Of a stretch of DNA of 64,000 bases, positions 41,335-63,870 are shown piece after piece. The notes below the pieces were generated by a model. The model was not told where the DNA came from, made no database searches, and worked only from the letters and a program-made list of their open reading frames with translations. Origin of the DNA: a virus; the IMG/VR virus record IMGVR_UViG_3300031951_000003, positions 62,001 to 126,000 of that record. One strand, written 5' to 3'. The translations under genes and the position numbers were made by a program. Every line of letters starts with the position of its first letter. The first letter of the stretch is position 1.

Positions 41335-43146
41335 TTATCTCAACTCTTTCAAATCGAATGTTCTAACACCATCAACTGTGATTCTACCGTAGAATCTGTT
41401 GTTCACCATTTTCTTAGCGTATCTAGTCATGATACCTTTGATTGGTGTGAAGTTGAATGGGTTATACATTGTTGGAGTAAGTTGTAAAGGTACATATGGT
41501 GCGTAAATGTAACCTGTATCAAGAAGCGAAGTTCCTTTGTGACCGATTAACACTTGGTTTGGTGGGAAGTAAGGGTCTCTATAAACTTGGTATCTACCAG
41601 CTAGAGTTCCTACTCTTTCAATACCCATGTTGTATTGGTCTTGCTCAGGAGCTGCGTTTGAAACGTGGAAATATTCTAAATCATCAAAAATCGCAGAGAT
41701 TTCAGAAGATACAACAATCCAGTTAGCACCGCCTCTTAAAGTTGATTTGTGAATTTGAGCTGACAATTGATTGATTGCAGTAATCAACGTTTGGTTCCAG
41801 TCTTTCTGAGTGTAAGAAACTGCGCCAGTTCCACCACCGAGTCTCTTCCAACCGTTGTAATCCCATCTCAAGTTCCATGCTGCACCTTTTCTAAGGTCTC
41901 TCAAGATTTCTCTATCGATTTCAGCCGCAACCTGCTCAGACAATAAAGCTGTCAATTCAGCTTCAGCGTCAATGTTGTGGAATGCTGCAACGTCTTGTGC
42001 CATTTCAGGTGACCATTGTGCTCTTAACTTTCTTTCTGTAACAGAAACAGTTACTGACATAAGGTCAAATGAAACCTCACCAATTTTATCTTCAAATTCT
42101 AAGTTCTTATACAATCTGTAAGTAGCTGAGAACGCTGAGTTTGCAGCTGTTGTTGAAGAGAATGTAGAACCTGTGTAACCGTCCATAGAACCTGTACATG
42201 TAATACATACTGGAACTTGAAGGTCGATTTCAAGATAGATATCACCATTTACATCACAGATGTTGTCATACTGACCACCATCAGTTAATGAACCTGGGAA
42301 ATCTAAAGTAGCGTTGTTGTTACCGTATTGAACGATACCTTTACCATATCTTTGAGTTACTACTCTGAAAAGGTAAGGACCACCACCCGCTGTTGTTGGG
42401 TTAGCAGATACACCGTAGATAGTCAAATCAGACAAGAATGATTCTGTGTCGATTGGGTTACCATCAGGACCGATTAATTTACCTGCTCCGTCAGATGCAA
42501 AACCTGACATGATAACTAATACTTTTCTATAGTTATCTGTTGCGTATGCCGCTGGTTCAAGATTCAAAGTTGTGTTGTTCCACTGAGCTGTTACAACTGA
42601 AGTTATTGCAGATGTTACAGAAGTGAAAGAACCCTTAGAATAATCGAATAAACCTGGTGGGTCTAACGCTGGTTCATTACCCTCATAAAATCTATCATAA
42701 AGGTCTCTACCATTGTTATAGTTGTATCCTGCATTTGGAGATGTTGGACCATCTGGTGCACCGTATGGTGAATAGTGTTGATTAAGACCTGCAGGTGCTG
42801 CTGGGTCATAGCTCTGAATGTTTGGTACAAAGTAGAACAATTTACCGATTGGTAAGTTCATTGCTTGTACTGAAACGATATCGTTAGCCAACAACTTAGA
42901 GAACACTCTTCTCACGATTGGAAATACAACAGTTTCAAATGCACCTGTATCAGATGTAGATGAAGCTTCGTTGATTAAGTGAGAAGCTTGGTTTTCATAA
43001 AGTTGAGCTACGTTTTCTCTCATGTGACCTTTAAGACCCTCTAAGAATCCTAATTTGTCCCATTTGTTGATTGTGTCTTCTTTGATAACTTTAAGGTGCT
43101 TAAGACCGATGTTACCAACAAGACCTGATTCTAATAATGCTCCCAT
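41335..43146 (-). CDS. Major capsid protein, T4 gp23-like
   Basis: A 603-residue protein. The N-terminal 60 residues end in ASHLINE and are followed by ASSTSDTGAFETVVFPIVRRVFSKLLANDIVSVQAMNLPIG, closely matching the start of mature T4 gp23 (maturation at Glu65 there). This places the predicted cleavage after Glu60. Late segments DLMSVTVSVTERKLRAQWSPE and EIDREILRDLRKGA are also gp23-like. It forms the hexameric shell. It follows the scaffold gene in T4 order and is probably cotranscribed with it. Confidence 0.93.
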   Translation of the reverse strand: MGALLESGLVGNIGLKHLKVIKEDTINKWDKLGFLEGLKGHMRENVAQLYENQASHLINEASSTSDTGAFETVVFPIVRRVFSKLLANDIVSVQAMNLPIGKLFYFVPNIQSYDPAAPAGLNQHYSPYGAPDGPTSPNAGYNYNNGRDLYDRFYEGNEPALDPPGLFDYSKGSFTSVTSAITSVVTAQWNNTTLNLEPAAYATDNYRKVLVIMSGFASDGAGKLIGPDGNPIDTESFLSDLTIYGVSANPTTAGGGPYLFRVVTQRYGKGIVQYGNNNATLDFPGSLTDGGQYDNICDVNGDIYLEIDLQVPVCITCTGSMDGYTGSTFSSTTAANSAFSATYRLYKNLEFEDKIGEVSFDLMSVTVSVTERKLRAQWSPEMAQDVAAFHNIDAEAELTALLSEQVAAEIDREILRDLRKGAAWNLRWDYNGWKRLGGGTGAVSYTQKDWNQTLITAINQLSAQIHKSTLRGGANWIVVSSEISAIFDDLEYFHVSNAAPEQDQYNMGIERVGTLAGRYQVYRDPYFPPNQVLIGHKGTSLLDTGYIYAPYVPLQLTPTMYNPFNFTPIKGIMTRYAKKMVNNRFYGRITVDGVRTFDLKELR

Positions 43147-45416: not shown

Positions 45417-46133
45417 TTATTTTCCTAAATAATGAGTAAGTTTTTTCATTAAGTCAATAGACTTGTCCTTGGTATCAGTAACTTCTCTTGACTTTTTTTC
45501 CTCCTCCAAATTTTCTTCATATTTAATTCTGTCCTCAGGATTCGTGAACAAGTAAGCACCTGGTGTCGATGGTGATGAAACTAAATCAAAACAAATTAAT
45601 TCAAAATCGTCTTGAACTTCATTTCTTTCCCCTACTTTTTTTAATGAACCAACTCCACGAGATGATATACCCAAAGTAACTCCTTGTCTCATGAGATTTG
45701 CAGCTACGTCACCTTTGGATGATACTATACCTCTCTCATGAAAACCTGGTGTGGTAAGTAATTTTAACTTACCCATCAAAATATTTTTATCCCACCAAAT
45801 GTCTGTAATTAAATGTGATACTCTATCCAAATCAATTAGAGAGGATTCGGGATGGTTCAACTCAGAAGTAGACAAACCCTTAGAAATTATTTTTTTATAA
45901 TTGTCAGCTTCTCTTTTCAGAATTCTTTCAGGATAAAATCTACCGTTCCTATTTGGTGTGTCATACTTTTGTAAAACAGCATAAAACTCAAATGGGTTCT
46001 TATAATCTAATTTTGCAGATTCTTGTAGTATCTTAAAATTATTTTCATCTTTTGGTGAAACATATCCCGCATCCATTTCGATGAGAATACCATGACCGAG
46101 TTCACTTGCTTCTAATATACGTAAATTTTTCAT
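45417..46133 (-). CDS. Prohead maturation protease, T4 gp21-like
   Basis: A 238-residue protein. Key segments are NPFEFYAVLQKYDTPNRNGRFYPE, then STSELNHPESSLIDLDRVSHLITDIWW with the candidate catalytic His, and GVTLGISSRGVGSLKK with the candidate Ser. These match the gp21/HK97-type herpesvirus-protease fold. It should cleave scaffold, capsid and packaged proteins after a Glu. It sits between the core-like and scaffold genes, as in T4. Late element 13 bases upstream. Confidence 0.92.
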   Translation of the reverse strand: MKNLRILEASELGHGILIEMDAGYVSPKDENNFKILQESAKLDYKNPFEFYAVLQKYDTPNRNGRFYPERILKREADNYKKIISKGLSTSELNHPESSLIDLDRVSHLITDIWWDKNILMGKLKLLTTPGFHERGIVSSKGDVAANLMRQGVTLGISSRGVGSLKKVGERNEVQDDFELICFDLVSSPSTPGAYLFTNPEDRIKYEENLEEEKKSREVTDTKDKSIDLMKKLTHYLGK

Positions 46134-47607: not shown

Positions 47608-47615
47608 ATAAATAT
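47608..47615 (-). promoter_or_regulatory. Late-type element ATATTTAT
   Basis: Sense-strand ATATTTAT, 16 bases before the ATG at 47591, touching the portal stop codon. Confidence 0.6.
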
Positions 47616-49453
47616 TATGAGTTCAACAACTTATCCAATTCTTTTTCAATTTCACCCAAAGATTGTTGTGCAATACCAAGATTGAGGGAACTCTTCCCTT
47701 TAATCATGTCATTTTCCAATAAAATATTAAGTTCTTTCTCTTTCGATTCAGGAGTAATCTCACCCCCCTCAGTAGGTGGTGGTGGAGGAGGAGCAGCCCC
47801 TAACTCTTCACCTCCCCCTGGAGGAAGTGGTGGTGGAGGTGCAAGTTCTTCTTCTCCGCCTGGTGTTGTTGAAGCACCTGCGGAAGGTGTGCTACCTGAA
47901 GAGCTACCATATAATTTGTCAATATTATCAAATAACCCTGTTTTACTTATAACAGTAGGTGTTGCTTTCAATTCTTCACCAACTGCTCTTTCGATTCTTT
48001 GTTGTTGTAAATCGAGTCTGATTTCTTCATCAGACCAATTAAATATGTGTTTCTTAGCCCATGTTGCAGAAGTTGCCGCAATACCAAATCCAGTATCTGC
48101 AACCAAATCTTTATATAGAAGAACTTTTTCTTTCCAAACATCAACTTTCAATAAGTCAGCTTGAGTTGATGGGTTAGTTAGTCCTAAAGTAAAATTATTC
48201 AATTCATCTTCGAATCCTAATAAGAACAGATGAACAATTGCAATCTTATTAAGTTCCGCCAACATACTCTTCTGAATTCTGTTGATAGTTCTAGCAAATC
48301 TAATATCTTGTAAGGCTAAGTTTTTACCATCTCCAACTACTTCCTCGAAACCTAAAAACGCCTTTGGAACACGGAGTGCAGTGAGTAACTTTTTCTGAAT
48401 ATACTCTATATCGGCAATCTCTGATAGGTTCGTTGCACCTGGTAATGTATCGATTGGACTAGGTGCCGCAGGGTCACGAACAGGAACAAAGTAGTCTTGG
48501 TCAACCGCCATTTGATTGAATCTCATGTCTACATTACCTGTCTTACTATCAACAATTTGTTCTCTTTTGAATTTGTTGGCCACACGTTGAACATATGCTT
48601 CAACATCGTCATCGTTCATATTCCCTACGAACACCTTGAAAATTCTTCTTTCAGGTGCTCTTGAGGTTCTATAAATCAACATCGCATCTTCACAAAGAAG
48701 AAGTTGTTTCCAAGTTCTTCTCGCTTTCTCCAACATAGATGTTCCATAAGGAAGTTTTCTGTCATCACCTAATAATCTAAAGTGAGCCATTTCCCAAGAT
48801 TGGAATTCCATATTCTTGTTCTTCCATGTAAAATGAAGGGCTTTTTTGTCTTTATCTAATTCTTGTGTAATATCAACTGAGATTTTTGCACTAACTCCAA
48901 CCTCATGTCTTTCTATTTCAATTGTTGGTAGTTGTTGACAACCTACAACACCCTTTTCAGGGTCCAGTTTCAAATAAACAAAGTTATCACCATACTTACA
49001 AGTGTTTCTTGTCCACATTGGCAAGTTGGTGTTGATGTCTAAATTACTATTGAATAAATCCGCCAAAACTCCTTTGATTCTTTTTGACTCAGAATATATC
49101 TGAAGAATAAAACCATCCTCATTTGTAGTTGTCGACTCCTCTGCGTATATATCCAAAGCGGCTGAAATTTCGGGTGTATACTCCATTGACTCATAGTCAT
49201 ACTGAGCAGACAATCTTGTTGGTTCGTAGTAGATTGCTTGAGAATATAAATTATTCTCTACCTTAGCCCACTGATTAGCCAAGTAGTAAGTCTGTTGTGC
49301 TTGAAGTTTTTCAACCTCGTATTCCTCTCTACTTTTGGTGCGTAGTAATTCTTTTTTATCAAACTTGAATGTAGGATAATCTTGATTCAGTAAAGAATTA
49401 GGTCCAAAAGTTTTCGACAGTCGTTGCCAAACTGTCATTTTTTGTTCAGCCAT
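47615..49453 (-). CDS. Portal protein, T4 gp20-like
   Basis: A 612-residue protein with the portal segments SQAIYYEPTRLSAQYDYESMEYTPEISAALDIYAEESTT, CQQLPTIEIERHEVG, AHFRLLGDDRKLPYGTSMLEKARRTWKQLLLCEDAMLIYRTSRAPERRIF and ALQDIRFARTINRIQKSMLAELNKIA. These are typical of gp20-type portals. The C-terminus has a Pro/Gly-rich stretch (APPPPLPPGGG) that is unusual. It forms the 12-mer DNA channel at the head vertex and follows terminase as in T4. Confidence 0.95.
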   Translation of the reverse strand: MAEQKMTVWQRLSKTFGPNSLLNQDYPTFKFDKKELLRTKSREEYEVEKLQAQQTYYLANQWAKVENNLYSQAIYYEPTRLSAQYDYESMEYTPEISAALDIYAEESTTTNEDGFILQIYSESKRIKGVLADLFNSNLDINTNLPMWTRNTCKYGDNFVYLKLDPEKGVVGCQQLPTIEIERHEVGVSAKISVDITQELDKDKKALHFTWKNKNMEFQSWEMAHFRLLGDDRKLPYGTSMLEKARRTWKQLLLCEDAMLIYRTSRAPERRIFKVFVGNMNDDDVEAYVQRVANKFKREQIVDSKTGNVDMRFNQMAVDQDYFVPVRDPAAPSPIDTLPGATNLSEIADIEYIQKKLLTALRVPKAFLGFEEVVGDGKNLALQDIRFARTINRIQKSMLAELNKIAIVHLFLLGFEDELNNFTLGLTNPSTQADLLKVDVWKEKVLLYKDLVADTGFGIAATSATWAKKHIFNWSDEEIRLDLQQQRIERAVGEELKATPTVISKTGLFDNIDKLYGSSSGSTPSAGASTTPGGEEELAPPPPLPPGGGEELGAAPPPPPPTEGGEITPESKEKELNILLENDMIKGKSSLNLGIAQQSLGEIEKELDKLLNS

Positions 49454-49490: not shown

Positions 49491-51248
49491 TTATTTGGCA
49501 CCAAATAACCACCCATATTTTTGATAATCCTGTTTAGAAGGACCCTGATTATTTGGGTGTTGCCTTCCCATTTGTGGCACGAAAGGATTGAAAAATTCTG
49601 AAGTATTTTTGTTTTCATTTACAACTGATGTCCATGAATTCAACATTGCCTTAGTATGATTTACGACTTTCTGTAATGATTGAAATGATTTTTCCGCAAC
49701 ATAAATTGCCATTGACATCCCCATAATACAGTCGTCGTGATGTCCCTTTTGATGGTCGGGTCTACCATTTACATAAATGAACGTATTCATTTCGTTGTAT
49801 AATCTATGTGAATATATTTTGAATTTGTGTCTAACCGCTTCCTCAAATGATGAAATAATTTGAACTCTCTTGGAATTGAAATTTATTCCTGGAATTTTTT
49901 CATTCAGTTTGGGGTCCCATTTCCATTTGTTGGTTGTATCTACATTATCAACATATAGTCCTGCAGGATAAGACATCTCTTGCATTTTTCTTGCAGTTGA
50001 AACCCCCATCCCTCCTGTTATATCTATAACACAATATGCATTATACATTGAACCCCATTTGAATGCTATTTCTGCAATTACATCAGGTGGGACTTTACCA
50101 ACATATTCTAATACCTGTTCTCTTTCATCAAAATCGATTATTTGTATACACGAAAAATCCTCAGAATCTCCACGTGATACGTCAACACCCATAACATATT
50201 TGTGATTATTTTCGGGTTCCTTGAATATCCATAACGCACCCCCCATTAGTTTTGCTGATGGTTCCCTTAGAGTGTTATGTGAGATTTCTTGCATCAAATC
50301 AGATTCGAAAACGTTATCACCTGAACCCAAGAAGTTACATTCCAATTCCTGAGCAACTTTTCTTCTATCGAATTTGAGTTTCTTTACCATACCCTCAAAC
50401 CAAGCAGAACAAGGTTTGTATCCTTTAGCAATATAATCTGTTGTTGTTGTATGGTCCCTTTCATAAGGGTTTTCTACAGATAAATCTAAAACTGTATCGG
50501 CAGGATAATCCTCCCTATTCAACAGAAAATGAACTAAGTCATTCGTTTTCACCATATACAGGTCTTTAGTATATCTTGGGTCTCTATACCAAAACATCTC
50601 AGAGATTTTGAATTCATTCATTCCTCTCAAGGCTTGGTCATAGATATCATAATAAATTGGGTCATAACCGTTTGGAGTTGATATTACAATCACCTTACCA
50701 CCCGTGGAGAGTGATGCCATACAAGCGGACCAAAAGTCGTTGTCGGCTTCAATGAACGCCGCTTCATCAAATACAAGTATAGTAGGGGTATAACCTCTCA
50801 GGGCATCTCTTGATGTTGCAACCGCTTTTACTTCACAATCATTTGTGAGTTTGAAATGTCGTTGAGAATTTTTTTCAGCGGAAAATCCAACACCAACCCA
50901 TGATGGCCATTGTTCAGTGAATCCCCTGATTTTGTTTGCCATCTCGACAGATGTATCGAGTTTGTTAGCGATAATGAGAATTTTTTCTGGCTTATTCTTT
51001 TTTGCAAATACTAATTTTTTTGATGCCCAAGCAGCAGTCACTGTTGATACTCCAGCCTGACGATACTTTAAGGCAATATTTTCATTATACTTATCGTAAT
51101 CTTCTATCAGTGAGACTTGGTCAGGGAATAAATCTAATGGAACATACTTCTGAACAGTGTTGTCGTATGTTTGTAAATAAGTTCGAAGTGCATAAGGAGT
51201 GCTCCTAACACACTTCGTAACCTCTATAATTAATTGTTCTTTAGTCAC
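49491..51248 (-). CDS. terL: Terminase large subunit, T4 gp17-like
   Basis: A 585-residue protein. The ATPase has a Walker A-like YRQAGVSTVTA (residues 62 to 72) and Walker B ILVFDEAAF (157 to 165). The nuclease has MGVDVSRGDSEDFS, CVIDITGGMG and HHDDCIMGMS, holding the three acidic metal ligands in order. It packages the genome into the prohead through the portal and cuts the concatemer. No small subunit was recognised in the window. Confidence 0.96.
   Translation of the reverse strand: MTKEQLIIEVTKCVRSTPYALRTYLQTYDNTVQKYVPLDLFPDQVSLIEDYDKYNENIALKYRQAGVSTVTAAWASKKLVFAKKNKPEKILIIANKLDTSVEMANKIRGFTEQWPSWVGVGFSAEKNSQRHFKLTNDCEVKAVATSRDALRGYTPTILVFDEAAFIEADNDFWSACMASLSTGGKVIVISTPNGYDPIYYDIYDQALRGMNEFKISEMFWYRDPRYTKDLYMVKTNDLVHFLLNREDYPADTVLDLSVENPYERDHTTTTDYIAKGYKPCSAWFEGMVKKLKFDRRKVAQELECNFLGSGDNVFESDLMQEISHNTLREPSAKLMGGALWIFKEPENNHKYVMGVDVSRGDSEDFSCIQIIDFDEREQVLEYVGKVPPDVIAEIAFKWGSMYNAYCVIDITGGMGVSTARKMQEMSYPAGLYVDNVDTTNKWKWDPKLNEKIPGINFNSKRVQIISSFEEAVRHKFKIYSHRLYNEMNTFIYVNGRPDHQKGHHDDCIMGMSMAIYVAEKSFQSLQKVVNHTKAMLNSWTSVVNENKNTSEFFNPFVPQMGRQHPNNQGPSKQDYQKYGWLFGAK
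49493..49500 (-). promoter_or_regulatory. Late-type element CTATTTAT
   Basis: Sense-strand CTATTTAT at the end of the terminase gene, 39 bases before the portal ATG at 49453. Confidence 0.5.
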
Positions 51249-55167: not shown

Positions 55168-56178
55168 TTAGTTGTTTAATCCGTTAAACCCTCCTAAGGT
55201 TATTGCGTTTAGTTGTATCGCAATGCCATTCTCGGTTGCGTATGCTGGATGAGGTACTTGTGTTCCTGCAGGTAATGTCCCGCCACTGAACGAACCTAAC
55301 ATTTCAGCAGTATATTCATAATTTTGGTTTACAGAAGTTCCAGTATAAACCACACCACAATCTGCACAATCAACAAATGGACCGTCTACAAATGTTGCAG
55401 TTGCAACGATTGGACCATAACTTGTATCAGTTATGAAATAACAGTTATAATCTAAATTGTTGTTATCAAACGTGAATAAATACATTTCACCAATAGTTGG
55501 TGAAACTCCTGAAATCTCTACACTCCATGTTGTTCCAATACAATCCGTAATTAACCAGAATCCTGGAGGTGTTGGAGTTGGAGTTCTTGTTGGCGTAGGT
55601 GTTGTTGTGTTTGTTGGTGTCACAGGTGGTGTTCCTGTTGGCGTTGATGTTACAGTCGGAGACACAGTAGGTGTAGTTGTTGTTGTCGGTGTAACCGCTG
55701 GAGTTCCTGTGTTTGTTGGTGTTTGAGTTAATGTTGCCGATACTGATGGTGTAGGTGTTGATGTTTGAGCAGGTGTTCCTGTATTGGTATTCGTTGGTGT
55801 GTTTGTTGCCGTTACCGACGGAGTTGGTGTTGACGTAACTGAAGGAGTTCTTGTTGGAGTAGGTGTTTGAGTTCCTGTTACAGGAGGTGTTGATGTTACC
55901 GTAGGAGTTTGAGTTGTGGTAACTGATGGTGTAGGCGTTGGGGTGACAACCGCTTGACATGTTGCACAATCACCATAATCAGATGACATGAAACTAACCA
56001 CATCCAAACCTGTTGTAGGCTCAGCATTATCGATAATGTCATAACAACCCTCAGCTGTAGCTCCTGTGAATCTTAAAAAGTAATTCCCGTTTACCGCAGG
56101 GAGATTTGAACTATCAAAATCGACTAGTATCGCTGGACCGCCACTACAAGCACCAATAAGATATGTAACTAAAGCCAT
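55168..56178 (-). CDS. Third Thr/Pro-rich (mucin-like) virion protein
   Basis: A 336-residue protein. An N-terminal Cys-containing domain (YLIGACSGGPAILVDFD...CATCQAVV, about residues 1 to 80) is followed by a Thr/Pro array of about 125 residues and a second Cys-pair domain (WLITDCIGTTWSVEI...CADCGVV). The same plan is seen in the 672- and 1309-residue proteins at 7.8 and 10.8 kb. It is likely a fibre or decoration protein. A late element lies 13 bases upstream of the ATG. Confidence 0.78.
   Translation of the reverse strand: MALVTYLIGACSGGPAILVDFDSSNLPAVNGNYFLRFTGATAEGCYDIIDNAEPTTGLDVVSFMSSDYGDCATCQAVVTPTPTPSVTTTQTPTVTSTPPVTGTQTPTPTRTPSVTSTPTPSVTATNTPTNTNTGTPAQTSTPTPSVSATLTQTPTNTGTPAVTPTTTTTPTVSPTVTSTPTGTPPVTPTNTTTPTPTRTPTPTPPGFWLITDCIGTTWSVEISGVSPTIGEMYLFTFDNNNLDYNCYFITDTSYGPIVATATFVDGPFVDCADCGVVYTGTSVNQNYEYTAEMLGSFSGGTLPAGTQVPHPAYATENGIAIQLNAITLGGFNGLNN
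55564..55943 (-). repeat. Thr/Pro-encoding repeat array
   Basis: Degenerate GTTGGTGT/GGAGTT repeats (plus-strand reading) encode the Thr/Pro linker of the 336-residue protein. Confidence 0.85.
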
Positions 56179-57566: not shown

Positions 57567-58148
57567 GTGTCATCTTTAGAAAAAATAATAAAAAAAGTTT
57601 TAATTGAGGTAAGAACCCAAAAAAAAGACGAATTCAATCGTGGTATGGAACATAGAATATATGCATCCAAATCTAACCCCGATAGACTATTCAAAGTGGG
57701 AGATGAGGGTGTAGGATATTGGGTCGAAGTATTCCGTTCAAATCCTGATATTTTTGCACAAGTTTACAGAACAGGAAAATTGGATAAATGGAATTATTAC
57801 GCCGAGATAGAAAAATTGGAAACAAATAGGGTTTTAAACGAATGGCAACAAATTGAAGAAAAATTAGAAGAAATTGGAATTATCGATTCTGAAGATGGTT
57901 CATACGGAAGAGATATTACCGACATATACACCAATCATGGGCATGACCAAAAAACAATAACAGAAATTTCAGAGAAACTGAGAGATTACGACAAACAAAC
58001 CTATAGTCTTTTTATCAAATATTTTAAACTTTTCAAAGATTGTGAAAGAGCTATTGAAAAAATTGTTGGTCATGAGACACTTGTTGATGCACATCGTTAC
58101 AATTTTGGTTATAGTAAGGATGGTAAATTGAAATGTTTGGACATATAA
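57567..58148 (+). CDS. Protein with kinase-like fold features
   Basis: A 193-residue protein with a GTG start (a later ATG at 57648 is possible but would drop the leader helix). The core HRIYASKSNPDRLFKVGDEG resembles a kinase beta-3 strand with its Lys. The C-terminal LVDAHRYNFGYSKDGKLKCLDI resembles a catalytic loop (D-x-H-x-x-N-F-G) and the following D-I. A leader-like start LEKIIKKVLIEVRT precedes this. It may be a small kinase-like or pseudokinase protein; the call is tentative. Confidence 0.55.
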   Translation: MSSLEKIIKKVLIEVRTQKKDEFNRGMEHRIYASKSNPDRLFKVGDEGVGYWVEVFRSNPDIFAQVYRTGKLDKWNYYAEIEKLETNRVLNEWQQIEEKLEEIGIIDSEDGSYGRDITDIYTNHGHDQKTITEISEKLRDYDKQTYSLFIKYFKLFKDCERAIEKIVGHETLVDAHRYNFGYSKDGKLKCLDI

Positions 58149-58176
58149 AAAACCCCCGCCATTGATAACGAGGGTT
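58145..58176 (-). terminator. Terminator after the hsp20-like gene
   Basis: AACCC (151-155) pairs with GGGTT (172-176), with an inner CG/CG pair. On the minus strand a run of T follows. It ends the hsp20-like transcript and lies directly after the convergent kinase-like gene. Confidence 0.65.
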
Positions 58177-58197
58177 ATGGATGTTCCTTTTCAGAGC

Positions 58198-58596
58198 CTA
58201 TAGAATACTAATTCTTTTCTTTTCTTGTTTTATATAATTGGGAACAAAAACTGTTAACATGCCGTCTTCAATTGTTGCTTCGATTGATGAAGGATTGTAA
58301 CCTTCACCAATTTTAAATTCCTTAGAAATTTTCTTGGTTTTTTCTTCACCATTCAGTTTATAGTTTCTCATTCCGTCAATATGTAAAACACCATCTTCCA
58401 TTTCTACTTTCAAATTTGTTTTGTTGAATCCTGGTGCTTCGAAAAAAAGATAAGCACCGTCTTTGGTGTGGTTTATTTCATAATTTTCTTCAGAATTATT
58501 TTTTAACACTGAGGTGGTGAAATTGTAATTTCCCCTTTTGTTGTTAAAGAATGAATCCATAAGGTCTTCAAAATTTGAGAAATTTGAGTAATACAT
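58198..58596 (-). CDS. Small heat-shock protein (Hsp20/alpha-crystallin)
   Basis: About 132 residues from the ATG at 58596 (MYYSNFSNFED); an upstream in-frame ATG at 58668 would add a basic, unlikely N-terminus. The alpha-crystallin domain is clear: YEINHTKDGAYLFFEAPGFNKTNLKVEMEDGVLHIDG, then ATIEDGMLTVFVP, and the C-terminal RISI motif that links oligomers. It holds unfolding proteins soluble. It is divergent from the Clp gene across a 198-base region with repeated operator-like sites. Confidence 0.92.
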   Translation of the reverse strand: MYYSNFSNFEDLMDSFFNNKRGNYNFTTSVLKNNSEENYEINHTKDGAYLFFEAPGFNKTNLKVEMEDGVLHIDGMRNYKLNGEEKTKKISKEFKIGEGYNPSSIEATIEDGMLTVFVPNYIKQEKKRISIL

Positions 58597-58669
58597 AATT
58601 TTTAATTTTTGTTTTATAAATTTATTATTTATTTTTGAGTAGTCAACTTTGATACCAAACCACCACAAA

Positions 58670-58770
58670 TGACAATTTGTAAGTGGAATTATAGATAATA
58701 TGACAAAGTGTCAATAAAAAAAATAAATCCTGTCAATTTGTCAAAACATTTGTTTGTGTCTCAAATTTGA
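58670..58770. promoter_or_regulatory. Array of ~30-base spaced operator-like repeats between hsp20 and clp
   Basis: TGACAATTTGTAA (670-682), TGACAAAGTGTCA (701-713), TGTCAATTTGTCA (731-743) and the palindrome TCAAATTTGA (761-770) have centres 31, 30 and about 28 bases apart, close to three helical turns. The second is a perfect 5-3-5 inverted repeat. The arrangement suggests a cooperatively bound regulator shared by the two stress genes. Confidence 0.5.
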
Positions 58771-58772
58771 TG

Positions 58773-58780
58773 TTAATTTG
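58773..58780 (+). promoter_or_regulatory. Weak host-type -7 element before clp
   Basis: TTAATTTG differs from TAnnTTTG at one position. A TTTG lies 20 bases before it, and the ATG is 14 bases after it. It is a possible early promoter for the unfoldase gene. Confidence 0.4.
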
Positions 58781-58794
58781 TAAAAATATCTACT

Positions 58795-60810
58795 ATGAAT
58801 GATTTAATGGATGACGACGAAAAAATGATGAGCAAGAAACAAAAACAATCATCAGACAGTCCAACCCCTGTGTTGGATAATTTTAGTCGAGACTTAAATA
58901 AGCTCGCAGAACAAGGTAAGTTGGACCCAGTTATAGGTCGCGACAGAGAAATCTTGAGAATTGCACAAATTCTTTCAAGAAGAAAAAAGAACAATCCAAT
59001 TATTATCGGAGAACCAGGTTGTGGTAAAACCGCAATTGTTGAGGGACTGGCAATGAAAATTGTAAGTGGTGATTGTCCCCGTAACTTAGTTGACAAACGT
59101 ATCGTAAACTTAGACCTTACCTCTGTTGTCGCAGGAACAAAATATCGCGGCCAATTTGAGGAAAGAATGAAAGTTATCATCGAAGAACTACAATCCAATC
59201 CGAACGTTGTTGTATTCATTGATGAAGTACACACATTGGTTGGTTCTGGTAACTCGGCGGGGTCTATGGATGGTTCCAATATTTTCAAACCCGCTCTTTC
59301 ACGCGGTGAGATTCAAATTATCGGTGCTACAACCCTCGATGAATTCCGAAAGAATATAGAAAAAGACGGGGCACTAGAGCGTAGATTCCAAAAAGTTGTT
59401 GTTGACCCATCAACAGTTGTTGAAACAATCCAAATTCTCAAAAACATCCGTGAGAAATATGAAAGTTATCACAAGGTTTCATATTCGGATGAGGTCATCG
59501 AATCATGTGTTAAACTTGCAGACCGATACATCACCGACCGTGAATTCCCTGATAAAGCATTCGACATCTTGGATGAAGTAGGTGCAAGAATGCAGACAGA
59601 ACTCAAGGTCCCTGAATCAATCGAAGAATTGAAAAAGAAGGCGGCTGAAATACGTCAGTTAAAAGTTGATGTAGTAAAAAAACAGAACTACGAACAAGCG
59701 GCACAGTTACGCGATAAGGAAAAGAAATTGTTGGACAAATTGGATACTGAGAAGAAGAAATTCGAAGAAGAAATGATTAACAACAAACAACAAATTTCCG
59801 TTGAGGATGTGTATGATGTGGTTTCTTCTATGACCAAAATCCCTGTGAATAAAATGAGTGTTGATGACACTAAAGCTCTTGTCAATTTGGATAAGGAATT
59901 AATAGGTAAAGTCATTGGACAAGACGATGCTGTTAGGAAAATTGCTAAGGCAATCAAAAGAAACAGACTTGGTATCAAAGACCCAAATCGTCCCATCGGT
60001 TCATTTGTTTTCTTGGGTTCGACAGGTGTGGGTAAAACTCACTTAGCTAAACAATTGGCAAAAGAAATGTTTGGAAGTGAAGACTCCCTAATCAGAGTTG
60101 ATATGAGTGAATATCAAGAAAAACATACCGTATCTAAATTAGTAGGTGCTCCTCCAGGTTACGTAGGTTACGAAGAAGGTGGACAGTTGACTGAAAAGGT
60201 AAAAAATAAACCATACTCAGTTATTCTTTTCGACGAAGTTGAAAAGGCGCACAAAGATGTGTTCACAATTCTTCTTCAAATTTTAGATGATGGACATGTA
60301 ACTGACAGCTTAGGTCGTAAAATCAATTTCAAAAATACCTTGATTATTTTGACATCAAACCTCGGTGTAAAGAAATTACAAGATTTTGGAACAGGTATTG
60401 GGTTTGGTTCTAGCACTTATAGTAATGAAGAGGCCAAGAAACAAGTATTGATGAAGGAAATGAAAAATTTCTTCTCTCCTGAGTTTTTGAATCGTATTGA
60501 CGATACAATTGTATTCAACTCTCTTAGTCAAGATGATATTAAAAAAATCACTAAGATTGAACTTGATAAGTTAATCTCACGTCTCAACGAAATGAATTAT
60601 AAAATCACATACGATGAGACCTTGACTGAACATCTCGCAAAAGTTGGATTCGATGAACTATATGGTGCAAGACCTCTCAAACGAGCAATCCAAGATAAAG
60701 TCGAGGATTTGATTTCAGAAGAAGTTTTGACCGACAAATTAGTAGAAGGAAAAAACTATATTGTCAAAGTAGAAGAAGATACTGTTAAGGTTGTTAAGAA
60801 AGGAAGATAA
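58795..60810 (+). CDS. ClpC-like AAA+ unfoldase lacking the N-terminal domain
   Basis: A 671-residue protein with two AAA+ modules. The first has GEPGCGKT (72-79), VVVFIDEVHTL and GATTLDEFRKNIEKDGALERRF (Arg finger). The second has GSTGVGKTHLAKQLAKE (about 406), VILFDEVEKAH and NRIDDTIVF. Between them, KQNYEQAAQLRDKEKKLLDKL (about 295-316) is a UVR-type segment found in ClpC. The Clp N-domain is absent: the protein starts 30 residues before the first module. The IGF tripeptide (535-537) lies where ClpP-docking loops occur. It probably unfolds proteins for host ClpP. Confidence 0.92.
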   Translation: MNDLMDDDEKMMSKKQKQSSDSPTPVLDNFSRDLNKLAEQGKLDPVIGRDREILRIAQILSRRKKNNPIIIGEPGCGKTAIVEGLAMKIVSGDCPRNLVDKRIVNLDLTSVVAGTKYRGQFEERMKVIIEELQSNPNVVVFIDEVHTLVGSGNSAGSMDGSNIFKPALSRGEIQIIGATTLDEFRKNIEKDGALERRFQKVVVDPSTVVETIQILKNIREKYESYHKVSYSDEVIESCVKLADRYITDREFPDKAFDILDEVGARMQTELKVPESIEELKKKAAEIRQLKVDVVKKQNYEQAAQLRDKEKKLLDKLDTEKKKFEEEMINNKQQISVEDVYDVVSSMTKIPVNKMSVDDTKALVNLDKELIGKVIGQDDAVRKIAKAIKRNRLGIKDPNRPIGSFVFLGSTGVGKTHLAKQLAKEMFGSEDSLIRVDMSEYQEKHTVSKLVGAPPGYVGYEEGGQLTEKVKNKPYSVILFDEVEKAHKDVFTILLQILDDGHVTDSLGRKINFKNTLIILTSNLGVKKLQDFGTGIGFGSSTYSNEEAKKQVLMKEMKNFFSPEFLNRIDDTIVFNSLSQDDIKKITKIELDKLISRLNEMNYKITYDETLTEHLAKVGFDELYGARPLKRAIQDKVEDLISEEVLTDKLVEGKNYIVKVEEDTVKVVKKGR

Positions 60811-60813
60811 TAG

Positions 60814-60839
60814 AAAAGGGGGATATTCCCCCTTTTTTT
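60814..60839 (+). terminator. Terminator after the Clp gene
   Basis: AAAAGGGGG (814-822), 5-base loop, CCCCCTTTT (828-836), then T to 839. It is followed immediately by a late-type element. Confidence 0.9.
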
Positions 60840-60847
60840 GTATTTAT
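60840..60847 (+). promoter_or_regulatory. Late-type element GTATTTAT, 4 bases from ATG
   Basis: GTATTTAT starts the base after the terminator and ends 4 bases before the ATG at 60852. Confidence 0.65.
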
Positions 60848-60851
60848 AAGT

Positions 60852-61460
60852 ATGAGTAATTTTTCAAGATTATTAGGTCAGTTCAAAGAACAGTTTCCTG
60901 ATGAATTTAAATCAAAAGTTGACATTATCGAAAAATTTGTTGTTGATTATATTAATAAAAACAAAATCACAATCAAGTTTTTGAATTCATGTGGAACCGG
61001 TTTCAGTGGGGTAAGAACCAAAGAACAAGTAATCATTTGTTCGCCAATGAACATGAGAACAATTGGTGATTTTCTTTATACCATATTTCACGAAATACGT
61101 CACGAAAAACAAATCCGAGATATTAAGATGGATAATCCCTTAACCGATTATGATTTGGAGGATTTTGAAAAACTATATAATCAATACTGGGAAATGGAAC
61201 TGGATGCAGACCAGTTTGCAAAAAATATGATTGCCAAATTAGTTATTAAATTAGAAATACCCATTTGGTTTGCCAAAGGGCAGTTCAATTTATCACACTA
61301 TATCGAACAATATCCATCGATGTCAAAAAGTGTTCAGATGTCCCTCAGGTCAATTGTAGACACAATTCGACATATAAAAAAATCGGGTGGTGAATTTAAT
61401 GATATTCAAGACCACCCGATGGTTAAAACACATATTGAAAGATTAGAAAACTTTATCTAA
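60852..61460 (+). CDS. Zincin-like metalloprotease
   Basis: A 202-residue protein with the zinc motif FLYTIFHEIRHEKQ (HExxH at about residues 78 to 82) and a downstream EMELDADQFAKNMI that can give the third, Glu ligand (E-x-D-A-D-x-x-A, common in gluzincin-like peptidases). No signal peptide, so it would act in the cytoplasm. It may process host or phage proteins. It lies between Clp and the M20-type peptidase. Family name is not certain. Confidence 0.68.
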   Translation: MSNFSRLLGQFKEQFPDEFKSKVDIIEKFVVDYINKNKITIKFLNSCGTGFSGVRTKEQVIICSPMNMRTIGDFLYTIFHEIRHEKQIRDIKMDNPLTDYDLEDFEKLYNQYWEMELDADQFAKNMIAKLVIKLEIPIWFAKGQFNLSHYIEQYPSMSKSVQMSLRSIVDTIRHIKKSGGEFNDIQDHPMVKTHIERLENFI

Positions 61461-62302
61461 ACCTTATAAGGGTTTTGGTTGTAACTATATTCCTTAGCCT
61501 TTTTAAAATGTAGTTTGTACCCAAGTTCTTCAATCATTTTTCTTCCCATATCGATTCCATTGTAAACATCTTCCACAACAACGTATTCATTTTTTGTGTG
61601 GTAATCATAGTACCCTATTGAGAAATTAATACAAGAAAAATCAAACTTTCCTCTCAAGGCATAAACATCTGTATATGGATGGACCATATATTCCATATCC
61701 GTTGGGACCATACCTTCAGTTAGTACTTTGTCACACGCCTTAAAAAAGTCCGTATCTCTATCGAATAGAATTTGACCGAAACATTTTTCAGTAATCATCC
61801 AGTTTTCAGGTGCGTCAAACTGAATTCCATATCCAACATTTTCGAAAAATTCAGGGTCTGCGTTTCTTGAACCGTGACAACCTGTTTCTTCAGAAACGAA
61901 AAACGCTGCTTTCAAATATGGAAGTTCTTTGAGTAATGTAAGACATGCAAACACTCCGCATTTATCATCTCCACCTATACCAGTGGGATTACCTTGGTCG
62001 TTATATGCCTTTAAAGATAATTTGAGTGCTCCTTGAGCATTTGGAAGATTTTCTTCAACAACGTTAATCGTGTCAAGTTTGTGTACAGTGTCTGTGTGAG
62101 ATATTACACAAGGGAAATAAAAACCTTCAGGTAAATCCCCAACCGGTTTCTTTGTTGCATACACATTATTTTTTTCATCGAGATAATATTCGATTTGATT
62201 TTCTTCCAACCATTTGGTTAGATAAAGAACCATTAAATCTTCTTTGTATGTGTGTGTTGGAACACTTAAAACTTCTTTGAGTAACTCTAAACTTTTTGTC
62301 AT
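61457..62302 (-). CDS. M20-type metallopeptidase, peptidase T-like
   Basis: About 281 residues from the ATG at 62302 (MTKSLELLKEVL); an upstream ATG at 62320 lies before the promoter-like element and is less likely. The metal-binding set is complete: PCVISHTDTVH, GIGGDDKCGVFA, FFVSEETGCHGS, QFDAPE and HTKNEYV. The enzyme should release an N-terminal residue from di- or tripeptides, the type of product that ATP-dependent proteases leave. It overlaps the convergent zincin gene by 4 bases. Confidence 0.87.
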   Translation of the reverse strand: MTKSLELLKEVLSVPTHTYKEDLMVLYLTKWLEENQIEYYLDEKNNVYATKKPVGDLPEGFYFPCVISHTDTVHKLDTINVVEENLPNAQGALKLSLKAYNDQGNPTGIGGDDKCGVFACLTLLKELPYLKAAFFVSEETGCHGSRNADPEFFENVGYGIQFDAPENWMITEKCFGQILFDRDTDFFKACDKVLTEGMVPTDMEYMVHPYTDVYALRGKFDFSCINFSIGYYDYHTKNEYVVVEDVYNGIDMGRKMIEELGYKLHFKKAKEYSYNQNPYKV

Positions 62303-62306
62303 ACTG

Positions 62307-62338
62307 CAAATATATGACAAAATTACAATTCAACCAAA
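62307..62338 (-). promoter_or_regulatory. Host-type promoter TTTG-N20-TATATTTG
   Basis: Sense-strand TATATTTG (62314 down to 62307) fully matches TAnnTTTG and lies 4 bases before the ATG at 62302. A TTTG lies 20 bases further upstream. Confidence 0.55.
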
Positions 62339-63369
62339 TTAAATAATTCTGGTTGATAAAGTAATTTGTTGAAACCGTCTTCAGAAATTTTGAATTTATT
62401 TATACCCGACATCCCTTTCTTCTTTTTCAAAGATATGTCAATTTTTTTTGTTTCCCTATCAAAACCATCGATTCTAAAAATTAAATCCGACCCTTTTGGT
62501 ATTTCATACCATATACCGATTTTATGTTTTTTTGTAACCCTATCAATCATATCCATAAAGGTGTTAGAATCACCTGATTCATAATCTTCTTCAATTCTCT
62601 CCAAAATTTTTTCCAACGACCTATTTGCTTCTTTATTAAAACTTTCATTGTCGAATACATCATCATCTTGATATTCAAACCTATCTTCATCCCATCCACC
62701 AATTGTTCTATTGGAATCTTGGAATATAGTTTTCAGTAATTTTTTGATTGACACGTGTGGAACATTATATTGAATGAAATTTGATATTAAATCACCCACA
62801 GTTGTTTTGATTCCATCTCCATGTCTCTGAAAACCAAAATCCCCTAAAAAATTATTCAATTCCGAATTTACATGTTCAGATGCAACGTGTCTTATTTCAA
62901 TATTTTTTTCGTGGGTCCAATCAATCACTATTGAGCCAATCTCTCGGGGATAATACTTTTCTAAAAACACTGCAAAACCAGCTCTGTCTTCTTCATCCTC
63001 GTAGTCAAATTTTTTACTATATATAAGTTTGGATATTCTTTGTAAAAGTTCTTTATTATCTGAATCGAAATTGTACCAAGGACCATACCCGTCTAAAAAA
63101 TCTTGTTCGGATGCACTTGAATCTTGAATATCGTAAGTATTGTACGGATTGTTAATTGCCTGTTCGAACCAAATATCATCATCATCCAAACCAATAATTT
63201 TTCCAAACTCATTCATGTCTGTGAATTCTATAATAACTTTTGACAAAGCAGGATTTTCCCTACTCGCAATAACTCTTCCAATGGACTTATCCGCCCCTTC
63301 CAATTCATACTGATTAATTTTTCCTTTTACAAATTTTCTTAAAGCAAAAAAACTATCTCCTGGTTCCAT
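62323..63369 (-). CDS. Hypothetical protein
   Basis: A 348-residue acidic protein. It has many Asp/Glu segments (DDDDIWFEQAINNPYNTYDIQDSS), a helical middle and a basic C-terminus (DISLKKKKGMSGINKFKIS). I recognise no family. It is the first minus-strand gene after the tmRNA, with a late-type element 5 bases before its ATG. Confidence 0.65.
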   Translation of the reverse strand: MEPGDSFFALRKFVKGKINQYELEGADKSIGRVIASRENPALSKVIIEFTDMNEFGKIIGLDDDDIWFEQAINNPYNTYDIQDSSASEQDFLDGYGPWYNFDSDNKELLQRISKLIYSKKFDYEDEEDRAGFAVFLEKYYPREIGSIVIDWTHEKNIEIRHVASEHVNSELNNFLGDFGFQRHGDGIKTTVGDLISNFIQYNVPHVSIKKLLKTIFQDSNRTIGGWDEDRFEYQDDDVFDNESFNKEANRSLEKILERIEEDYESGDSNTFMDMIDRVTKKHKIGIWYEIPKGSDLIFRIDGFDRETKKIDISLKKKKGMSGINKFKISEDGFNKLLYQPELFNLVEL

Positions 63370-63374
63370 ATCGT

Positions 63375-63382
63375 ATAAATAG
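63375..63382 (-). promoter_or_regulatory. Late-type element CTATTTAT, 5 bases from ATG
   Basis: Sense-strand CTATTTAT ending 5 bases before the ATG at 63369. Confidence 0.6.
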
Positions 63383-63390
63383 ACTTTTAA

Positions 63391-63421
63391 TTTGGAAATT
63401 TAATATTTATGTATATCTTTG
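63391..63421 (+). promoter_or_regulatory. Host-type promoter TTTG-N19-TATCTTTG for tmRNA
   Basis: TTTG (391-394), 19 bases, TATCTTTG (414-421), an exact Bacteroidetes-type promoter ending 20 bases before the mature 5' end of the tmRNA, leaving room for a leader removed by RNase P. Confidence 0.72.
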
Positions 63422-63441
63422 TTGTGTTCTTTGAAAATATT

Positions 63442-63836
63442 GGGGAAGTCATGGCAATTGATTGGCGTGTGTAGTTATAGGTGGCACGTAGGAGCTGAGT
63501 TAACTCCTTTATCAACTGATTTGAAAAAACAAATGGCAATACTTTTGCTAAGATGGCTGCTATCGGTTTAATCGCTGAAGAAGCTACTGTTGTTGCTTAA
63601 TTTAAGTCACGACACTCGGGTCGGTTAGGACATTAACCTAGGAACAGAAGTCCAATATACGGGTCACAGGTCAGAGCTCGTTTAAAATAATTCTGAGACC
63701 AAGTTGTTTGTAGGTGGGTTTCTCACATATATCAAACCTAATATTTCGGAACATTGAGAAACAATGTTGTAATAAACGTGTAGTCACTTATAGTTGTCGC
63801 GAACAAGACACGGGTTCGACTCCCGTCTTCTCCACA
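63442..63836 (+). ncRNA. ssrA: tmRNA (transfer-messenger RNA)
   Basis: The acceptor GGGGAAG (442-448) pairs with CTTCTCC (827-833), with one G-U. The T arm is ACGGG, loop TTCGACT, CCCGT (810-826). A 15-pair P2 helix (471-485 with 783-797, six of them G-U) closes the molecule. Between them, a reading frame ends at TAA 598-600; its last 13 codons give AIGLIAEEATVVA, the probable tag end. The tag ends VVA where LAA or VAA is usual. After discriminator A834 the CCA is not fully encoded (CAG). It should rescue stalled ribosomes and tag peptides for proteolysis. A terminator follows at once. Confidence 0.93.
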
Positions 63837-63845
63837 GCAGATTAA

Positions 63846-63870
63846 CCCCGAGAAACTCTCGGGGTTTTTT
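63846..63870 (+). terminator. Terminator after tmRNA
   Basis: CCCCGAGA (846-853) and TCTCGGGG (857-864) form a perfect 8-base stem with a 3-base loop, followed by six T. Confidence 0.92.

Follow-up and report, generated by a model that had tools for sequence, protein, structure and literature searches.

Genes for tmRNA carried by phages have been described in mycobacteriophages and phage G (PMC4131195) and, together with SmpB, in huge phages (PMC7162821). In an earlier survey, 2.3% of phage genomes carried a tmRNA, and a phage tmRNA that tags host proteins for degradation has been put forward speculatively (PMC9004378). Equally, ClpP, ClpA/X and Hsp20 of jumbo phages have been published, with proposed roles directed at host proteins or in assembly (PMC7824862). 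The locus analysed here shares with the trans-translation system of Bacteroidota a one-piece tmRNA, a glycine resume codon at the same position, the G3-U70 pair and a putative C-terminal small hydrophobic degron, as well as SmpB in the relatives of the phage, although SmpB is missing in the phage itself. In contrast to the tmRNA-SmpB-ssrA-ClpXP/ClpAP system of Bacteroidota, however, it is encoded by the phage, its tag comprises 21-22 instead of 9-10 aa and never ends in LAA, and the tmRNA is paired with a ClpC lacking the N-domain and not with ClpX. A location on the phage genome, sometimes together with SmpB, is common to the tmRNAs of mycobacteriophages, phage G, huge phages, Melnitz (PMC9004378) and Cellulophaga Calle_1, whereas the tmRNA of the clade considered here is fixed beside a ClpC and an M20 peptidase of its own and comes with a phage-encoded ClpP and a recoded tag that is conserved. 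The clade's Clp and Hsp20 proteins belong to the same or related families as those of jumbo phages (PMC7824862), but ClpC and ClpP co-occur here with tmRNA and SmpB, which points to tagged nascent chains as substrate. No report of a fixed combination of tmRNA, recoded tag, N-domain-less ClpC, ClpP and SmpB was found in a literature search beyond whose reach most subscription journals lay.

The window, the whole stretch of 64,000 nucleotides that was analysed, comprises bases 62001-126000 of a 321,139-base IMG/VR virus record and contains T4-like head genes. A Bacteroidota host is likely, because the 80 best cellular relatives of the phage ClpC are almost all Bacteroidota by title, mostly Flavobacteriia (55-61% identity), and because the promoter of the tmRNA is of the Bacteroidota type. 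The clade is large and comprises uncultured giant viruses with probable Bacteroidota hosts, with ClpC identities from 100% down to about 69% (69-70%) in the fetched set. All five parts of a protein quality control island that the initial annotation had proposed, namely Hsp20, a ClpC-like unfoldase, an HExxH zincin, an M20-type peptidase and a tmRNA, were recovered among the following features.

41335-43146, major head protein
45417-46133, gp21-like head maturation protease, between head protein and portal
47615-49453, portal
49491-51248, large terminase
58198-58668, minus strand, Hsp20 small heat-shock protein (PF00011, 47 bits, 2.3e-12; likely ATG at 58596)
58608-58637, plus strand, match to the Bacteroidota-type promoter pattern TTTG-N-TAnnTTTG in the divergent intergenic stretch between Hsp20 and ClpC
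58795-60810, plus strand, ClpC-like unfoldase, 671 aa (PDB match and motifs)
60852-61460, plus strand, HExxH zincin, 202 aa (FHEIRHE...ELDAD)
61457-62320, minus strand, M20/PepT-like metallopeptidase (PHROG 4191, 1.6e-31; likely ATG at 62302)
62323-63369, minus strand, unknown 348-aa protein (ORF348), conserved in order and fast evolving (identity down to 22-30%)
63391-63421, plus strand, tmRNA promoter of the Bacteroidota type, TTTG-N19-TATCTTTG
63442-63837, plus strand, one-piece tmRNA (ssrA), RF00023
63535-63600, plus strand, tag reading frame within the tmRNA, GNTFAKMAAIGLIAEEATVVA followed by a stop
63844-63866, plus strand, intrinsic terminator directly 3' of the tmRNA (10-bp stem and T run)

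The promoter match at 58608-58637 could be due to chance, being one of 15 such matches in the window. Genes of the island are found on both strands and are separated by terminators, a further one following right after the tmRNA, so that the island is a gene neighbourhood rather than an operon. Shortly before it, a 336-aa protein (55168-56178, minus strand) contains long Thr/Pro/Ser repeats of the TPTPTPS type and may be a fibre or a low-complexity linker. Directly 3' of the tmRNA and outside the window, from about window position 64059 (L008:60-3335), the phage encodes a 1091-aa outer-membrane beta-barrel protein with a carboxypeptidase-regulatory domain (TonB-receptor/Oar-like; OMP_b-brl_4, 6e-53), an unusual phage cargo.

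Conservation of the ssrA, Clp and M20 neighbourhood, a check proposed with the initial annotation, was found in all 44 loci with at least 7 kb of sequence downstream of ClpC: each contains the N-domain-less ClpC, M20 on the opposite strand and the tmRNA on the same strand as ClpC, 2.0-5.6 kb from it. These three linked genes form the conserved core of the island, which does not extend to Hsp20 and the zincin; both are accessory (17/74 and 17/44 ClpC-anchored loci, respectively). Within one clade, such proximity reflects shared descent and is therefore not independent evidence.

Our preferred reading, to which we assign a probability of about 55%, is a phage module for trans-translation and ClpCP-dependent proteolysis, with a recoded tag that would be read mainly by the phage ClpC. 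The tmRNA would be transcribed from its own promoter of the Bacteroidota type, charged with alanine by the host AlaRS and, with SmpB (of the host in this phage, of the phage in many relatives), would free ribosomes that stall on broken mRNA in the course of infection. A tag of 21-22 aa with the host resume position and a V-x-V-A-type end instead of YALAA would thereby be appended, whereupon the N-domain-less ClpC as the main reader of the tag would unfold the protein and feed it to the phage ClpP.

The tmRNA of the window scores 76.4 bits against RF00023 (E 6.7e-28; gathering threshold 47) and has no BLASTN match in known phages, and 45 of the 50 clade records carry a tmRNA above the Rfam cutoff, compared with the 2.3% of phage genomes in the earlier survey (PMC9004378). 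The G3-U70 alanine identity pair is present in the window and in 82 of 92 relatives, and an acceptor stem with at least 6 of 7 pairs in all 92, a slightly generous count since the best register was picked per sequence. Upstream, the full Bacteroidota-type promoter motif is found in 49/92 relatives versus 0.8% of random 100-nt stretches. ARAGORN alone misses many tmRNAs of the clade and shortens some tags, so that surveys undercount phage tmRNAs. Its tag for the window, AEEATVVA, covers no more than the C-terminal part of the full 21-aa tag, for which an alignment of 92 relatives places the GGC resume codon at tmRNA position 94. A frame of 21-22 codons that opens with G[NK] between tmRNA positions 90 and 97 is present in 84 of the 92 distinct full-length relatives. 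On the host side, represented by the 30 genomes with the closest ClpC (one not read by ARAGORN), tags are 9-10 aa long, start at position 95-99, read mostly GENNYALAA and end in LAA or MAA in 29/29 readable cases, whereas the phage tags end in A (77/84) or I (7/84) and in no case in LAA (0/84). With start positions that match and ends that do not, phage and host tags have the resume site in common and differ in the tag end. The tag frame is under purifying selection, strongest there among the frames, with pN/pS of 0.55 for 21-aa and 0.52 for 22-aa tags compared with 0.76-2.1 in the remaining two frames, where almost every row is interrupted by stops.

The unfoldase finds its best PDB match in Staphylococcus aureus ClpC (754 bits versus 658 for the best ClpB) and possesses two AAA domains, a UVR middle domain and the ClpP-docking loop GTGIGF, this loop and the PDB scores ruling out a ClpB disaggregase. 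Among 123 relatives, all 616-687 aa long, the Walker motifs and GxG[IVL]GF are invariant and the pore loops nearly so. The adaptor-binding Clp_N domain is absent; the alignment begins at residue 147 of S. aureus ClpC. Host ClpP, to which the initial annotation had assigned the proteolysis, need not be invoked, because the phage encodes a ClpP of its own some 22 kb downstream of the tmRNA, past the end of the window (C1:147522-148049; PF00574, 8.6e-59), with a Ser-His-Asp triad that is intact here and in 26/26 relatives. This ClpP is divergent, as it scores below the NCBIfam cutoffs despite its match to the CLP_protease family. Among the 32 tmRNA contigs that extend 28 kb or more downstream, 28 encode ClpP on the same side, 12-27 kb downstream of the tmRNA; in the other four, all of the deeper branch, no ClpP was found in the 30-45 kb that follow, which counts against the module. 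By their intact catalytic residues, ClpC and ClpP are predicted to be active, and from the sequences we infer activity, the reading of the tag by ClpC, the pairing of ClpC with ClpP and the timing. A role of ClpP as prohead protease is unlikely since the separate gp21-like protease is encoded between head protein and portal. Equally, its neighbourhood was rejected as a structural module, with a carbamoyltransferase and unknown genes as flanks and one match to a minor coat protein nearby. Just 5' of ClpP lie a NolO-type carbamoyltransferase gene and then a second gene with a carbamoyltransferase C-terminal domain (L008:17465-19135, L009:25-729), and the 20-kb stretch between tmRNA and ClpP contains 23 genes that ARAGORN reads as apparent tRNAs (L008:8989 on; C1, about 134,990 on).

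Going further than a tag read mainly by the phage ClpC, the tag might be a private degron of an orthogonal viral pathway, read by the N-domain-less phage ClpCP and only poorly by host ClpXP, and used in the clearance of nonstop products, as host or defence nucleases cut mRNA in infection, or in amino-acid recycling; this we regard as possible and tentative. A rather doubtful alternative limits the tmRNA to rescue, with tagged proteins delivered to host ClpXP or without a specific fate and the phage ClpCP an independent protease, acting on proteins of host or phage, that is merely nearby. VVA or VAA tag ends may still suit host ClpX, and elsewhere the two parts occur singly: ClpC/ClpP without tmRNA in the huge phages LR745206, LR756502 and SCTP-2, which also counts against the module, and tmRNA without Clp in Cellulophaga phage phi40:1, which has M20, and in Calle_1. 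In the clade, however, the ClpX-read part of the host tag, LAA, is replaced in 84/84 tags, and almost all relatives retain an intact ClpC and ClpP nearby. Beyond the clade, both a tmRNA and a match to an AAA unfoldase occur in LR756508, LR756504 and the two Lak phages that were included, with ClpP detected by profile in the former two and by tblastn in Lak. In LR756508 and LR756504, tmRNA and ClpC are far apart, another point against the module, and the tags of the Lak phages look conventional (DDEIEFRMAA). The unrelated 636-kb phage LR756504 encodes SmpB 3.7 kb from an N-domain-less ClpC.

Several side observations concern these phages. At the ClpC match of LR756508 (L209) and LR756504 (L211), open frames of 664-666 aa apparently lack the N-domain, the ClpC ORF of LR756504 being 648 aa, and the ClpC frames of the huge phages without tmRNA measure 709-752 aa; the lineages are few and the pattern could be chance. 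About 2 kb 5' of ClpC in the 635-kb phage LR745206, a GOLLD RNA was found (287 bits; L208:9535-9940). The tmRNA of phi40:1 (KC821612; Rfam 87.6 bits, L213:3351-3710), unannotated in its record, has a long V-rich tag ending in NLEVAVGV and lies 1.3 kb from an M20 peptidase gene. That M20 and long V-rich tags travel together was considered and dropped, with only three lineages at hand.

The M20 peptidase had been called complete in the initial annotation, which is correct for its metal ligands (HxD, D, EE, D, H; the full set in the window and invariant in 116/116 relatives) and incorrect for the PepT lid domain, which is absent. The Pfam M20 score is just below cutoff (22.8 versus 24.6 bits) and NCBIfam PepT-like reaches 28.8 versus 274, while the PDB matches of an AlphaFold (AF2) model with pLDDT 90, built from an alignment (a single-sequence fold gave pLDDT 33), are to PepT. 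The fold and the metal ligands are thus those of peptidase T and the M20 family; the phage protein of about 280 aa is, however, a minimal phage form (PHROG 4191), its 281-aa model leaving no room for a lid (dimerisation) domain. That M20 trims the tagged product, as had been proposed, could not be sustained: in scans started from phi40:1, LR756504 and an M20 alignment, such peptidases were found mainly in small phages, and 0/50 contigs with other phage M20s carry a tmRNA over the cutoff, so that a dedicated tag trimmer was rejected. The zincin has only weak family matches and fits no described family well; its HExxH and E ligand are invariant in 52/52 relatives and the gene is limited to nearer relatives. 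M20 and zincin probably both act more generally on peptides or proteins.

That tmRNA, ClpC and M20 are ordinary cargo, kept together by shared ancestry alone without joint function, with the tmRNA possibly an integration-site relic, is improbable. In its favour, Hsp20, zincin and ORF348 vary and the M20s of other phages do without tmRNA; yet the order of the core holds over the whole range of ClpC identity while neighbours come and go, the tag frame is under selection, the tmRNA is full length with promoter and terminator, and SmpB has apparently been acquired next to it repeatedly. The window phage has no SmpB, which counts against the module and means that host SmpB must serve, and only 2/50 clade records carry one. 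Starting from one of these two records, a scan turned up 34 clade loci in which SmpB (TIGR00086 match, 151 bits versus cutoff 119) and tmRNA are 0.1-2.2 kb apart; M20 is encoded in the same flank in every one of them, and ClpC in most. In L027, with a ClpC 88% identical to that of the window, a different SmpB (50% identical) is encoded 128 nt 3' of the tmRNA on the same strand, and the SmpB tree excludes it from the first SmpB group with support 99/98. On this tree, SmpB is placed as gained beside the tmRNA at least twice, which is the strongest independent sign of a use of the tmRNA in rescue. After the SmpB of L027 follows a gene (1098 aa; L027:16713-20009) that looks similar to the one for the 1091-aa outer-membrane beta-barrel protein of the window phage. 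Improbable to a like degree is a stabilising or sorting tag that shields products against host ClpXP or directs them to a fate other than degradation, with ribosome rescue the sole benefit, since for all its doubled length and lost LAA relative to the host tag, the phage tag still ends small and hydrophobic as in degrons, and a protein unfoldase and a peptidase are kept alongside.

Although tmRNAs have long been noted in phages, no clear purpose has been assigned to them. In the clade described here, a tmRNA with a recoded tag is kept throughout together with an unfoldase and a peptidase of the phage, and frequently with SmpB, which makes the use of phage tmRNAs directly testable. This arrangement suggests, short of proof, that unfinished proteins are tagged and destroyed by a private system of these viruses. 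If the tag is indeed a private degron, it would provide a useful orthogonal degradation tool.
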